Part shown: positions 3,482 to 43,770 of the stretch, piece by piece
Position numbering within the stretch: the first letter of the stretch is position 1
Layout of the letters: each line of letters begins with the position of its first letter
Assembly: GCA_031292555.1 (NCBI GenBank)
Contig: JARLGV010000098.1
Coordinates: 62,001-126,000, forward strand
Direction: 5' to 3'
Length of the DNA: 64,000 nucleotides
DNA from: Fimbriimonas sp.
GTDB taxonomy: Bacteria; Armatimonadota; Fimbriimonadia; Fimbriimonadales; Fimbriimonadaceae
Position numbers and translations under genes: made by a program
The notes under the pieces: model-generated
The model's database searches: none
What the model was told of the DNA's origin: nothing
The model's input: only the letters and a program-made list of their open reading frames with translations

Positions 3482-4240
3482 TTACAATTTCCGCCGGCAG
3501 AGGTACATCGCCTCGATCTCGTCAAGACTCAAAAACCGGCGGGCCCAATGTCCGGCAGTGCCGCCGTAGACGTTATCGACCGTAAATCCTGCGTCGGTAA
3601 GCATCCTTACGACCTCGGGTGGAATGAAGAGGCGCTCGTGAACCGTCATCAACTTCTGGCCCTCGGGCAGGTCCCACTCGTCCTCGTAATTCGCTACCAT
3701 GGTTGCCGGATCGAATCGGCCGGCTTGGACATGCTCGTCCTTCATCTGGCGGATGATCGAATAGCCGTTAAGCGCGGTGAGTACGAATGGCGCGTTAGGC
3801 TTGAGACACTCTGCGATGCGCGCGAAGATCGCACCATCGTGCGCCTCCGCATCCTCTCCCCGCTCGATGAGTCCGACGCCGCCTTCGCACAAACAGATCG
3901 CCACATCGAACCGGTCTGCCAGCCGAAACGTCGTCGCATCCGCCTGGATCCATCGAACCTCCACACCGGCTGCAGCCGCCTTCCGCGTCGCTTCGGCGAG
4001 CATGCCGCTCGACAGGTCGACGCCCGTCACATTGAACCCTCGCTTCGCCAATTCGATGCTGTGGCGGCCGGTTCCGCATCCGACGTCAAGTATCGTTGCT
4101 CCGGGCAGGATTGGATAGAGAGTGAGGAGGAAGTCCACCTCGGCAAGGGTGTGCTGGGCGAACCCGTTCTGATCGTAGTGAGGCGCATGCGCGTCGAAGA
4201 ACCGCAGCCATTCACGGCTGCCGGCGGACGGGGAAGACAT
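3482..4240 (-). CDS. Class I SAM-dependent methyltransferase
   Basis: The 252-residue protein has a Rossmann methyltransferase core: motif I ILDVGCGTGRHS (about 50-61) for the SAM glycine loop, an acidic loop GVDLSSGML, a motif II region with QADATTF, and a post-core C-terminal strand pair ending GGTAGHWARRF. This layout matches the ubiquinone/menaquinone-type and Methyltransf_25 groups, but nothing fixes the substrate. It is transcribed divergently from the sugar ABC cassette with only 74 nt between the starts. Soluble, cytoplasmic. The start is an ATG at 4240. Confidence 0.85.
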   Translation of the reverse strand: MSSPSAGSREWLRFFDAHAPHYDQNGFAQHTLAEVDFLLTLYPILPGATILDVGCGTGRHSIELAKRGFNVTGVDLSSGMLAEATRKAAAAGVEVRWIQADATTFRLADRFDVAICLCEGGVGLIERGEDAEAHDGAIFARIAECLKPNAPFVLTALNGYSIIRQMKDEHVQAGRFDPATMVANYEDEWDLPEGQKLMTVHERLFIPPEVVRMLTDAGFTVDNVYGGTAGHWARRFLSLDEIEAMYLCRRKL

Positions 4241-4292
4241 GGTCTGAGGGTACCTCTCTCTGGAGCGGGTAGCGGGGTGGGCACAACTCCAT

Positions 4293-4316
4293 ACCGGAAG
4301 GCGCTACACTTCCGGT
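4293..4316 (+). promoter_or_regulatory. Inverted repeat over the -10 and start of the sugar-binding protein gene
   Basis: ACCGGAAG (4293-4300) and CTTCCGGT (4309-4316) are perfect 8-bp arms around an 8-nt spacer. The hexamer TACACT (4305-4310), a plausible -10 placed 7 nt before the second GTG (4318), lies inside the repeat. The first GTG (4315) overlaps the right arm. A repressor bound here would cover the promoter; alternatively the RNA would fold over the start codon. The gap is shared with the divergent methyltransferase gene. Confidence 0.5.
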
Positions 4317-5589
4317 GGTGAAGCGGTGCTACGTGGTTGTGGCGATCATGCTCGGTGTCTTACTTGCCGGGTGCGCGGGCAAAGGCAATCGGGGCGAAGT
4401 CACGCTGCACCTGTCCAACTGGGGCGGGGCGGACGACGACCCGGTCTACGCGCGCAAAATCGACGGTCTCTACCGTCAATTCGAACGAGAGAACCCGGGA
4501 ATAAGGCTGGAGATCGAGAGCGTGCCTGACGAATACGTTCAGAAGATGATCTTGAGCTTTGTGGCCGGTACCGCGCCGGACGTGCTTTCGCTCGACGCAT
4601 CGAGTGCCGGAGTCTTCATCAACAACGGGGTCCTCCAAGACCTTTCGCCGTTGGCTGCGGGCGACCCGACTTTCAAAGCTTCGGACTACTGGGCAAACGT
4701 GCTTGCGATCGATCAGCGCGGCAAGGCACTCTATGCGGTACCGGGCGACTTCACGCCGCTCGTGCTTTATTACAACAAGAAGCTGTTTGACCGCGCCCAT
4801 GTGCCGTATCCATCGGGAGTGTGGACGTTCCAGCAGTTCCTGGAAGTGGCCCGAAAGCTGACGCTGCGCGACTCGAGCGGACGGGTGATCCAGTACGGCT
4901 ACAACTTCACCAATTGGATGCCTGGCTGGATCGTCTGGCTATGGAACAACGGCGGCGACGTCCTGACGCCCGATGGGGGGCGCGCCAAGGGCGCCCTCGA
5001 TTCGCCCCAGAATGTGGCGTCGATCACGTTTCTCCGCGACCTCGTTCTCAAGGAGAAGGTGTCTCCCGACCTCAGCCAAACCGCCGCAACCGGCGTCGAC
5101 CCGTTCGGCAATGGCCAGACCGCGATGGAGATCAGCGGGCATTGGGAATTGACGAGTTTCAAGACCGCGCCGAAGCTGAAGCTGAGCGATGTCGGAGTGG
5201 CCCAGGCGCCGACCAACTTGCCCAAGGGGCGGACGGTGATGTACGAGGTTGGTTTTGCGATTCCGAAGCAGGCTCGCCACCCGAAGGAGTCGTGGAAGCT
5301 GATCAAATACCTCACCGGTCACCTGTATCAGCAAGCCTATCAGCAGACTGGGATCGCGGTATGTGGAAGGAAGGACGTCGCTAACGAGCGGGCGACCGAC
5401 CCGCGCGAACAGCAATTCCTGAACTTGGTCCCGACCGCAAGGGGCCCGTGGGGCGCCCAAGTGGTCGGCTATGATTTCGTCGAGCAGGAAGGCAAGAAGA
5501 TGATGGAGCGGGTCCTCGCCGGAACCGATCCCAAACAGGCGCTCTCGGAGATGGCGGACCGGATCGACAGCTACTTCAAGGTGAGATGA
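4315..5589 (+). CDS. Sugar ABC transporter substrate-binding lipoprotein
   Basis: This family 1 extracellular solute-binding protein (424 residues) has a short charged N-terminus, a hydrophobic segment and a lipobox LLAGC with the lipidated Cys at residue 20, so it is exported and membrane-anchored. The mature protein carries the usual cluster A features for sugar binding (LSNWGG, FVAGTAPDV, YYNKKLFD, GHWELTSF). Ligands in this family are oligosaccharides or sugar derivatives; the exact one cannot be read from sequence. Start choice: GTG GTG tandem at 4315/4318, and the -10 spacing favours 4318. It overlaps the following permease gene by 4 nt, so the three genes are translationally coupled. 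Confidence 0.92.
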   Translation: MVKRCYVVVAIMLGVLLAGCAGKGNRGEVTLHLSNWGGADDDPVYARKIDGLYRQFERENPGIRLEIESVPDEYVQKMILSFVAGTAPDVLSLDASSAGVFINNGVLQDLSPLAAGDPTFKASDYWANVLAIDQRGKALYAVPGDFTPLVLYYNKKLFDRAHVPYPSGVWTFQQFLEVARKLTLRDSSGRVIQYGYNFTNWMPGWIVWLWNNGGDVLTPDGGRAKGALDSPQNVASITFLRDLVLKEKVSPDLSQTAATGVDPFGNGQTAMEISGHWELTSFKTAPKLKLSDVGVAQAPTNLPKGRTVMYEVGFAIPKQARHPKESWKLIKYLTGHLYQQAYQQTGIAVCGRKDVANERATDPREQQFLNLVPTARGPWGAQVVGYDFVEQEGKKMMERVLAGTDPKQALSEMADRIDSYFKVR

Positions 5590-8909: not shown

Positions 8910-9365
8910 TCACGGCAGGAAGTGCAGAAGCTGTTCGATGTGGTAGGCGTCGTGCCCCAACTCGAGGTTGGCCATATCGTACAGCGTTTGCACGCCCCGT
9001 TCGGGGTGAACGACAGATTTCTCCCAATTCCCCGGACCGTTTTCTTCGAGGAACCGGATGGTGGCTTCGCGGAGCGATATCCATAGCGTCGCTTCGACCG
9101 TGGGGTCGGTCTCGCCGTAGCGAAGGTCGATGGCGCGCTGTCCTTCGTCGATTGGCGTAAGGATGCTTCCCGGGTTGTCGATTGTTTGCTTCATCCGGGA
9201 GAGCAGGATCGGTTCCCAATCGGCCATGTGGGCAACGATCTCGCGGAAGGTGAATCGGTCGGCATCGGTTTTCGTGTCGTATAGGTCGGCCGAAGCATGG
9301 TCGACGATCCACTTGATACTGGAGGGCCCCATCCGAAGGCCTGGAATGAGATAAACGTTTCCCAT
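8910..9365 (-). CDS. DinB/YfiT-fold putative metal-dependent protein
   Basis: A 151-residue four-helix-bundle protein of the DinB superfamily. The metal-binding histidine positions appear in VAHMADWE and in GHDAYHIEQLLHF near the C-terminus, the conserved layout of this family. Members act as thiol-dependent transferases or stress proteins; this one has no assignable substrate. The start at 9365 is preceded by CATAAT 5 nt upstream and no ribosome site, which suggests a leaderless message; an internal ATG at 9332 is an alternative. Single-gene unit. Confidence 0.85.
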   Translation of the reverse strand: MGNVYLIPGLRMGPSSIKWIVDHASADLYDTKTDADRFTFREIVAHMADWEPILLSRMKQTIDNPGSILTPIDEGQRAIDLRYGETDPTVEATLWISLREATIRFLEENGPGNWEKSVVHPERGVQTLYDMANLELGHDAYHIEQLLHFLP

Positions 9366-9423: not shown

Positions 9424-10410
9424 TCAGGAGATGAATGCTCGAATGTGTTGGATGCACAACTGAGGGGCTTCCTCCGGCACGTAATTTCCAACTCCGGGCA
9501 GTACGACGGTCGCCGCGTACGGGATTATCGCCTGCATCCTTTGCAGTGCGTCTTCGCCGTAGGTGCGGTCATCTCCGCCCCACAGGATCAGACACGGCTT
9601 CTTCATCGCGGAGTATCCCTTGGCAACCGATTCGAACCACCCGTCCTTTGCCGTCATGGCACGCGCCAGAGCCTCGGGACAGTACGTCTCGAACTGGTTG
9701 TTGAACGCATGCTGAAACTGGTCCTGAACCCACTTCGGCAGGTTGTGCTCGTCGGCAAAGAGAATCGGCAGGTAGAACTTGGGCGACGGATTGAGTAGCC
9801 GGAACCAGTAGAGGTTGAGCGGACTCGTCGCCACTTGGGTGACGAATCGGATCACCATGCTCTTGTCAAGCGACCATACCCACGTGTTGAACAGGACCAA
9901 GTCGCGGAAGCGATCCGGATTGCGCGACGCCCAGTCCATACCGATTGAGCCACCGAAGTCGTGCCCGACGATGGTTACGTCGCGAAGATCCAGGTGCTCG
10001 ATCAGGGCCTCCAGGCGCCGAGTATGAGCGGCTGGGCGGTAATCGACCTTCTTCGGTTTTTGTGAGAGGCCAAGTCCGAGGTGGTCCACTCCAATACACC
10101 TGAAGTTCTTGGAAAGGTTGGCGATCAATTTGCGATAGAGGAATGACCACGTAGGCGAACCGTGCAGGAACACGATCGGCTTGCCTTGCCCCACGTCGAT
10201 GTAGTGCATCAGCCCATCGGGAGATTCAAACGACTTTGATGCGAATGGATACTCGACCGTGTTCAGCCAATGGGCAATCTCTGGGAGCGAAGGATGGATG
10301 TCTCGCGTGGGCTCTCGAGTCTGAAGCACAGGGCCGGGCCTCGACACGAATCTCCACCATCGAGACATACCGGTTCCAAAAAGTCGTAAAGCCACGGTTG
10401 CTGCCGGCAT
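9424..10410 (-). CDS. Haloalkane dehalogenase-like hydrolase with Asn at the catalytic His position
   Basis: An alpha/beta hydrolase (328 residues) of the haloalkane dehalogenase/epoxide hydrolase branch. It has the oxyanion block HGSPTWSFLYR (83-93), a nucleophile elbow GHDFGG with Asp151, a cap domain about 175-265, and an acid region WGGDD (277-281). The motif that normally reads GH-F-x-x-E-D/E near the C-terminus is GNYVPEEAP here, so the catalytic His position is Asn309 (codon AAT at 9486-9484; one base from CAT). The canonical dehalogenase halide-binding Asn and Trp are Ser85 and Phe152. Without the general base the covalent ester should not be hydrolysed normally, so this may be a non-turnover binder or an inactive relative. 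The frame is otherwise intact. The N-terminal 35 residues may be overextended. Confidence 0.85.
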   Translation of the reverse strand: MPAATVALRLFGTGMSRWWRFVSRPGPVLQTREPTRDIHPSLPEIAHWLNTVEYPFASKSFESPDGLMHYIDVGQGKPIVFLHGSPTWSFLYRKLIANLSKNFRCIGVDHLGLGLSQKPKKVDYRPAAHTRRLEALIEHLDLRDVTIVGHDFGGSIGMDWASRNPDRFRDLVLFNTWVWSLDKSMVIRFVTQVATSPLNLYWFRLLNPSPKFYLPILFADEHNLPKWVQDQFQHAFNNQFETYCPEALARAMTAKDGWFESVAKGYSAMKKPCLILWGGDDRTYGEDALQRMQAIIPYAATVVLPGVGNYVPEEAPQLCIQHIRAFIS

Positions 10411-10583: not shown

Positions 10584-11099
10584 CTAAGTTGAGAGGCTTT
10601 CTCTTTCCGATCTCAAAGCCCCGACCAAGTCTGGGATGCGGGTCAGGCCGCTGTTGTCTTCGGGATAGGCGATGTATGGCTTGGGGCCACCGTGAACTTC
10701 GCCCTCGCCCTGGTAGGTCGCCGAAGGAGATTCGAAGATGAATCTCAGCCTGCTGTCGCATTCGGCAAGAAGAGATTGAAATCGCTCGGTATCGGCTTTG
10801 GGGATCGTGAAGGCGATGCGCCAAGCAACGACGGGATGCTCTTCCGAGATTGGGCGCAAGTAGATGAGCGGCCGAAGAACGGTGAATTCGATCTTCGATT
10901 CCCCTGGCCGGCAGATCCACATAACCTTATTCTTGAACTCCTGCGCTCCGGGAAACATATACTTACTATATCCCCTCCAGGGTGTCCACAATTCCTCAAG
11001 CGGCCCTAGGATGCGAAATGTGAGCAACTTCGGGGTCTGATTGAACGGAATTCGGACATATCTCACGAATTGCGGGCTTTTGGTCCCCGTAAGGTCCAA
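10584..11099 (-). CDS. Hypothetical protein
   Basis: A 171-residue soluble protein without signal peptide or membrane segment, mixed alpha/beta by composition. I recognise no family. The only early start in frame is TTG at 11099; the next ATG is about 47 residues in, so the start is uncertain. The coding character is good (RIPFNQTPKLLTFRI, VVAWRIAFTIPKADTERF). It is divergent from the YbjN-like gene across about 145 nt. The gap from 10411 to 10583 on its other side holds nothing I can name. Confidence 0.55.
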   Translation of the reverse strand: MDLTGTKSPQFVRYVRIPFNQTPKLLTFRILGPLEELWTPWRGYSKYMFPGAQEFKNKVMWICRPGESKIEFTVLRPLIYLRPISEEHPVVAWRIAFTIPKADTERFQSLLAECDSRLRFIFESPSATYQGEGEVHGGPKPYIAYPEDNSGLTRIPDLVGALRSERESLST

Positions 11100-42485: not shown

Positions 42486-42998
42486 TCACCGCCGCGAGCC
42501 GGCTCTTGGCGAATCGACCCCGCCCTTGGACCGCTGCGCGACATACCAAATGCCGACTGCAATCGCATAGAACAGCCAAGGCGAACTGAGTCCGTGAATC
42601 ACCCGTTGGATCACCGACAGGTATCGCAAAATGGGGTCGGTCGGAAGGACATGGGTAAAGACCCAGTAAACGAATACAAGCAAACCGCTCATCGGGGCCA
42701 GGCGTACATAGGCCTCCATCAGGGTCGGCTGGCCCGAGGATGGCTGAATCGCTGCCGCTCGATATTCCTGATTCGGTTCGGTTTTTACCGGATTCCTGGT
42801 CCGGACCTCTTGAAGTAGTCGCTCCACATCCTGGGCTGAAAGCTGCGTCGCTTCGGCGACATCGTGGATGGTGACCATCGCTTGACGACTTGCTTCCTCT
42901 TGCTGGCGTTCGGCCCAAAGGTTCATCACTTCCTTGGCTTCGACTTGGCTCATATAGGTGGGCCGAACATCCTCAAACTCGTGCCGCGTGTTATTCAT
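42486..42998 (-). CDS. HTH-plus-membrane protein, paralog 1
   Basis: A 170-residue protein, tandem paralog of the gene at 43279-43770. A shared N-terminal domain of about 60 residues includes LWAERQQEEASRQ, then VTIHDVAEATQLSAQDVERLL, which looks like a helix-turn-helix. A variable Pro/Gln-rich linker is followed by two hydrophobic segments (MSGLLVFVYWVFTHVL, WLFYAIAVGIWYVA) and a basic end. I recognise no family. The arrangement suggests a membrane-tethered DNA- or protein-binding module. Confidence 0.65.
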   Translation of the reverse strand: MNNTRHEFEDVRPTYMSQVEAKEVMNLWAERQQEEASRQAMVTIHDVAEATQLSAQDVERLLQEVRTRNPVKTEPNQEYRAAAIQPSSGQPTLMEAYVRLAPMSGLLVFVYWVFTHVLPTDPILRYLSVIQRVIHGLSSPWLFYAIAVGIWYVAQRSKGGVDSPRAGSRR

Positions 42999-43278: not shown

Positions 43279-43770
43279 CTATCGCTTGGACGATCGAAAT
43301 TCCCTTTCAGCGAGAGCTCTCTTCACTTGGGTCGACACGATCGTTCGGTAGGCGTAGGAAAGTATGTATCCGGCGAAGACCAAGATCGCATAGAGAATAA
43401 GAAGTGTCGTCACTTCGTTCGAGCGGTACGGTCCTGCTCCCGTGTACAACCAGGCCACGAGCAGGGCCGCGCAGCCCGAAAGCGGTCCGACTTTGACGAT
43501 TGCGTCGAGGAGCCGTACGTCCGAAACATGGATCTCGGGTGAGGGAGGGTGGACCTGACTGGGTTGCGGAGTCCGAATCTCGCTCAGTAGGCGGACGACA
43601 TCCTGTTCGCTAAGCTGAGTTGCCTCGGCGACATCGTGTACGGTGATCAGCGACTGCCTTGATGCCTCCTCTCGCTGGCGGCGAGCCCATAACTCCATGA
43701 GTTCATTAGCCTCCGCCTGGGTCATGAAATGGGGGTCGATATGGGACGGCTTGGCTCCTGGGTCGCTCAT
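43279..43770 (-). CDS. HTH-plus-membrane protein, paralog 2
   Basis: A 163-residue protein whose first 65 residues closely match the neighbour (MTQAEANELMELWARRQ, EEASRQSLITVHDVAEATQL, SEQDVVRLLSEIRT). The linker and membrane part (PLSGCAALLVAWLY, LILYAILVFAGYILSYAY) have diverged, but the positions of the two hydrophobic segments are the same. The duplication is therefore old, with the HTH-like part under stronger constraint. The 280-nt gap between the paralogs (42999-43278) holds no gene that I can support. Confidence 0.65.
   Translation of the reverse strand: MSDPGAKPSHIDPHFMTQAEANELMELWARRQREEASRQSLITVHDVAEATQLSEQDVVRLLSEIRTPQPSQVHPPSPEIHVSDVRLLDAIVKVGPLSGCAALLVAWLYTGAGPYRSNEVTTLLILYAILVFAGYILSYAYRTIVSTQVKRALAEREFRSSKR

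Follow-up and report, generated by a model that had tools for sequence, protein, structure and literature searches.

What does a protein of the haloalkane dehalogenase (HLD) kind do when its nucleophile is in place and its catalytic histidine is not? The question is raised by a gene at positions 9424–10410 of the 64,000-nucleotide stretch of Fimbriimonas DNA analysed here (the window), for whose product a preliminary description had proposed either a covalent binder or a pseudoenzyme. In HLDs, an ester is formed between the nucleophilic Asp and the substrate, and a water molecule activated by the His frees the product; in HaloTag7, an engineered DhaA, the H272N exchange blocks this second step (PMC8388125). 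Loss of the triad in HLD relatives has so far been known mostly from engineering of this type, and no description of a natural His-less HLD relative was found in the literature searched, whose scope leaves most subscription papers outside; this negative does not prove that none exists.

Family placement and active-site residues

The gene encodes a protein of 328 amino acids that matches the α/β-hydrolase family PF00561 in Pfam with 95 bits. Three haloalkane dehalogenase models of NCBIfam give strong matches that nevertheless fall far short of their thresholds, namely PRK03204 (166 bits versus a cut-off of 466), PRK03592 (136 versus 241), and PRK00870 (112 versus 265). The nearest solved structures in a PDB search are those of DhmeA (8ooh/8ckp), an HLD-like enzyme of subfamily III from Haloferax mediterranei, which align over the full length. 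With the single protein as query, 8ooh is matched at an E-value of 9e-49 and HLD-I/II structures at 1e-31 or worse; a family profile matches the DhmeA structures at 7e-87. Being closest to subfamily-III members and carrying its acid after strand 7, the protein belongs by lineage to HLD subfamily III. A single-protein search of genome contigs returned one distant Ser-hydrolase only, a search of viral contigs returned one remote relative, and a search for near-identical plasmid DNA returned none.

The catalytic pentad of DhmeA consists of Asn63, Asp129, Trp130, Asp258, and His286 (PMC10503415), to which Ser85, Asp151, Phe152, Asp281, and Asn309 of the 328-residue protein align. The two proteins share the fold, the Asp nucleophile, the Asp acid after strand 7, the motif N-T-W-x-W, and the loop G-x-Y-V-P-E-E but differ at the remaining three pentad positions: the His base is replaced by Asn309, and both halide-stabilizing residues (Trp and Trp/Asn) are missing, with Ser85 and Phe152 in their stead. 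The nucleophile, located in the elbow, and the acid are present, as had been described beforehand, and the alignment assigns the acid to Asp281. The features of the gene are as follows.

9424–10410, minus strand: HLD-III-like α/β-hydrolase without the catalytic His (P0001), stop codon included; open reading frame and translation, 328 amino acids
9484–9486, minus strand: codon 309 (AAT, Asn), where HLDs have the catalytic His; aligned with DhmeA His286 and DhaA His272
9568–9570, minus strand: Asp281, position of the catalytic acid; aligned with DhmeA Asp258, present in 22/22 complete His-less orthologues
9745–9747, minus strand: His222, cap; His or Tyr in 22/23 of the clade, neither in His-bearing relatives
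9814–9816, minus strand: Asn199, cap; 23/23 of the clade, usually Gly in His-bearing relatives
9955–9957, minus strand: Phe152, site of the halide-binding Trp in HLDs; F, Y, V, A, S, C, Q, L, or I in the clade
9958–9960, minus strand: Asp151, position of the nucleophile; 23/23 orthologues
10156–10158, minus strand: Ser85, site of the halide-binding Asn in HLD-II/III; S, L, C, G, A, or N in the clade

Asn309 lies within LPGVGNYVPEEA, and its codon reads AAT at 9486–9484 of the minus strand (ATT on the plus strand), so that both the residue and the codon first reported at this position hold. Asp151 is found in VGHDFGGSI, immediately followed by Phe152, Ser85 in HGSPTWS, and Asp281 in WGGDD. Residues are numbered along the longest open reading frame; since the conserved domain starts near residue 45, the start codon of the gene is uncertain. 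An AlphaFold model computed from single-sequence input had a pLDDT of 41, too low to use.

Position 309 across the genus

Protein searches covered 85 genomes of the taxonomic family and 291 of the phylum. Exactly one His-less orthologue occurs in each of the genomes of the genus that were searched (20/20). Matches were also obtained in three genomes of a sister genus (g7) and in one of another (g44), both of the same taxonomic family, and a few more elsewhere among the 291 genomes of the phylum. In a maximum-likelihood tree, the 23 His-less orthologues constitute one clade (ultrafast bootstrap/SH-aLRT 100/96), within which the five sequences with Asn309 group together (95/87). Position 309 is occupied by Arg in 13 members of this clade, by Asn in five, by Lys in two, and by Gly in two, one sequence being truncated. 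The genus itself features Asn, Arg (13), or Lys (2), never His; both Gly residues belong to g7, whose third copy ends before that point. The four nearest relatives, at 72, 67, 63, and about 43% identity, all carry Asn encoded by AAT or AAC. Outside the taxonomic family, His is present in 11 of 11 relatives examined, comprising four from the phylum, six encoded by plasmids, and DhmeA, its retention beyond the phylum having been assessed in the six plasmid relatives and DhmeA.

The preliminary description had left room for a misread codon and for close homologues that all have His. Because all 20 orthologues of the genus lack His and the four nearest relatives have Asn throughout, the loss is real rather than due to chance or error. 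A sequencing error at codon 309 is ruled out by the orthologues from other genomes, which lack His as well. As judged from the orthologues, the loss of His is an old, maintained, and clade-wide change and neither an error nor an isolated mutation. Most economically, the ancestor would have lost its His once, and the site would later have become Arg, Asn, Lys, or Gly; the tree does not settle whether Arg or Asn came first. The codons for Asn309 (AAT, AAC, AAC, AAT, AAC) and for Arg309 (CGG/CGA/CGT/CGC/AGG) vary while the residue stays constant, which indicates purifying selection; in codon comparisons between orthologues, dN ranges from 0.02 to 0.33, with dS near or at saturation. That the gene is decaying or represents an artefact of sequencing is hardly credible, given the open frame, the occurrence of Asn in five independent genomes, the absence of His from all 23, and the purifying selection seen in the codons; apart from the unusual residue, nothing speaks for it.

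The branches of the clade sum to 10.4 substitutions per site. Across this distance, Asp151 (23/23), Asp281 (22/22), Trp179 (23/23), and Asn175 (22/23) are retained, and an unconstrained site evolving at the mean rate would stay unchanged with a probability of about exp(−10.4), or 3e-5. Since several positions of the clade are invariant, retention argues for constraint and not specifically for catalysis. The halide columns are free to vary, with six residues at position 85 and about nine at position 152. These columns show that the nucleophile and the acid have been retained, in contrast to the halide site. The free variation of the halide-site residues renders haloalkane dehalogenation very unlikely, which bears out the earlier suspicion that Ser85 and Phe152 speak against a normal dehalogenase. 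Annotations of clade genes as ‘haloalkane dehalogenase’ or ‘alpha/beta fold hydrolase’ are likely to be wrong with respect to function.

A pocket without its His base

A working hydrolase might persist if another residue substituted for the missing base. All columns of the clade were scanned for a compensating His, and the only new one is residue 222 of the cap, where the confinement of His/Tyr to the His-less clade speaks for such a role. However, about half of the clade has Tyr at this residue, which follows the DhaA tunnel-mouth segment 175–179 in the alignment, a position past the tunnel mouth at which His222 is no obvious stand-in base. By alignment rather than coordinates, it probably lies away from the nucleophile. 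The remaining conserved His residues (83, 110, 129, and 150) are shared with His-bearing relatives and thus not new to the clade. A hydrolase rescued in this manner is accordingly improbable. An α/β epoxide hydrolase would have two Tyr residues (or His/Tyr) in its cap to polarize the epoxide, together with a His-Asp relay; here the cap carries His/Tyr222, which may or may not be suitably placed, and the His base is absent.

Without this base, the water step that releases the Asp ester could presumably not run as it does in HLDs; since the His is missing, we infer that the protein does not act as an HLD-type turnover hydrolase. The reading favored here, at a probability of roughly one half, is that of a pseudo-hydrolase derived from HLD subfamily III, in which the Asp-bearing pocket has been kept, probably for the non-covalent binding of a ligand. 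The genus-wide orthologous group would descend from subfamily-III HLD-like hydrolases whose ancestor lost the His once. Residue 309 (Arg, Lys, or Asn) would probably contact Asp151 and Asp281 through an ion pair or hydrogen bonds, and the pocket beneath the cap would be kept as a non-covalent ligand site with a role in sensing, as a carrier, or as a scaffold. This reading is put first on two grounds, the loss of the halide residues and the presence, in most orthologues, of an Arg or Lys that could form a pair with Asp151 and Asp281. In agreement with it, an essential residue is lost across the orthologues in a clade of 23 without His, the pattern expected of a pseudoenzyme. Of the two proposals made at the outset, the pseudoenzyme thus fits better than a covalent haloalkane binder, a preference drawn from sequence comparison.

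The unbroken retention of Asp151 and of the acid exceeds what a purely scaffolding role would need, and altered chemistry would fit it as well. Asp-dependent catalysis that dispenses with the His base, such as an elimination, decarboxylation, or isomerization without ester hydrolysis, is tentatively considered as the main rival. Arg, Lys, or Asn309 might then bind an anionic group of the substrate with the participation of Asn199 and His/Tyr222, loosely in the manner of OleB. In its favor, Asp151, Asp281, Asn175, and Trp179 are practically invariant, and two cap features are specific to the clade, Asn199 (which is fixed in the aligned His-less sequences) and His/Tyr222. A precedent exists in OleB, which belongs to subfamily III and acts mainly as a β-lactone decarboxylase rather than as a dehalogenase (PMC10503415). 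In contrast to the clade, however, OleB retains the Asp-His-Asp triad, in keeping with the conservation of the pentad in subfamily III (PMC10503415), and it acts in the oleABCD pathway. No OleC scored above the cut-off in the genome containing the window (best match 63 bits versus 478), and no ole genes were recognized among the neighbours scanned. Membership in the Ole pathway was rejected on this search of the genome for OleC. A Gly at position 309 in the sister genus is also hard to reconcile with a catalytic part for this residue.

The other proposal of the preliminary description was drawn from HaloTag7, in which, as here, Asn replaces the catalytic His and the Asp nucleophile is kept (PMC8388125). 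On this reading, Asp151 would become alkylated by an electrophile, and the ester would persist because water cannot be activated by residue 309, making the protein a single-turnover scavenger or sensor. The retention of the nucleophile in all orthologues and the coincidence of Asn309 with the H272N site are in its favor. The parallel is sound at this one residue but does not extend further: HaloTag7 is engineered and retains the halide-binding Asn41 and Trp107, both of which are lost in the 328-residue protein, where the corresponding columns, needed for the leaving group, are unconserved. Moreover, Asn is only one of four residues found at position 309 of the natural clade, where Arg is commonest and where Arg, Lys, or Gly occupies the site in sister orthologues. 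Asn309 is hence not the conserved feature, and an Arg or Lys at this position could make Asp151 less nucleophilic by pairing with it. With position 309 varied and positions 85 and 152 highly variable, nothing positive supports a covalent haloalkane binder, which is regarded as unlikely. The three readings are judged to rank in the order of pseudo-hydrolase as the most likely, His-independent Asp chemistry as its main rival, and a covalent trap as a possibility.

If the pseudo-hydrolase reading is correct, the 23 orthologues would constitute a conserved pseudo-HLD clade. It is also conceivable, with lesser confidence, that the genus-wide clade harbors a reactive Asp whose chemistry ends without His, either in a durable adduct or as an Asp-dependent lyase or decarboxylase. 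The natural series of Asn, Arg, Lys, and Gly at position 309 provides a test set for an Asp nucleophile without His, and new scaffolds for self-labelling or ligand binding might be derived from the clade. Its specialist interest is moderate and would be greater should Asp151 prove reactive.

Neighbouring genes and other departures from the triad

Two genes flank the His-less gene on the same strand.

8910–9365, minus strand: DinB_2 family protein, 58 nt downstream
10584–11099, minus strand: 171-amino-acid protein without a Pfam match, upstream

The DinB_2 superfamily includes thiol S-transferases, and the downstream neighbour in the window genome could thus be taken to favor a covalent scavenger. 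However, no DinB_2 counterpart is found beside the orthologues in other genomes, so that the neighbour is not conserved and could be an operon partner in the window genome alone. The pairing of the 171-amino-acid protein with the His-less gene is common only to the nearest relative (G019). In seven genomes of the genus, a cystathionine gamma-synthase gene lies 59 to about 140 nt upstream of the orthologue, and in five an old-yellow-enzyme (OYE) gene adjoins it; altogether, 10 of 20 genomes have one or both genes directly beside the orthologue and in the same orientation. These neighbours hint at metabolism without a consistent pathway and, to that extent, favor altered catalysis. Against this stands the window genome, in which neither gene is located beside the orthologue and the cystathionine gamma-synthase homologues reside on other contigs. 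Elsewhere in the window, neighbouring open reading frames of 170 and 163 amino acids (42489–42998 and 43282–43770, minus strand) with MTQAEANELMELWA-like starts are apparent tandem duplicates.

In some genomes, a second HLD-like paralogue is located beside pyrG, the CTP synthase gene, and mostly also beside asnS (L061–L065, L067). This paralogue is intact in G008 and G061; Asp is replaced by Gly in G013 and G014, and His by Arg in G025 and by Ala in G062. Catalytic residues at the pyrG-asnS locus were thus lost repeatedly, independently, and in different ways. That this happened at a single conserved locus suggests uses of the fold in this lineage for which the triad is dispensable, and it counts in favor of the pseudo-hydrolase reading. 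The pyrG-asnS paralogues belong to the same lineage of relatives and the same taxonomic family as the His-less clade, and some of them similarly lack Asp or His, but they occupy a separate locus, have lost other catalytic residues, and carry Gly at cap position 199.

Further variants were encountered among HLD-like proteins. In three of them (L024, L026, L034), HGMGG replaces the HDxGG elbow, so that the nucleophile is gone and the His is retained, the mirror image of the present case; these proteins come from two genera and may represent one lineage or two losses. On a plasmid of Rhodococcus erythropolis (L099, about 4001–4807), the nucleophile Asp of an HLD-like protein is changed to Asn (GHNWGG), and the His is again retained.
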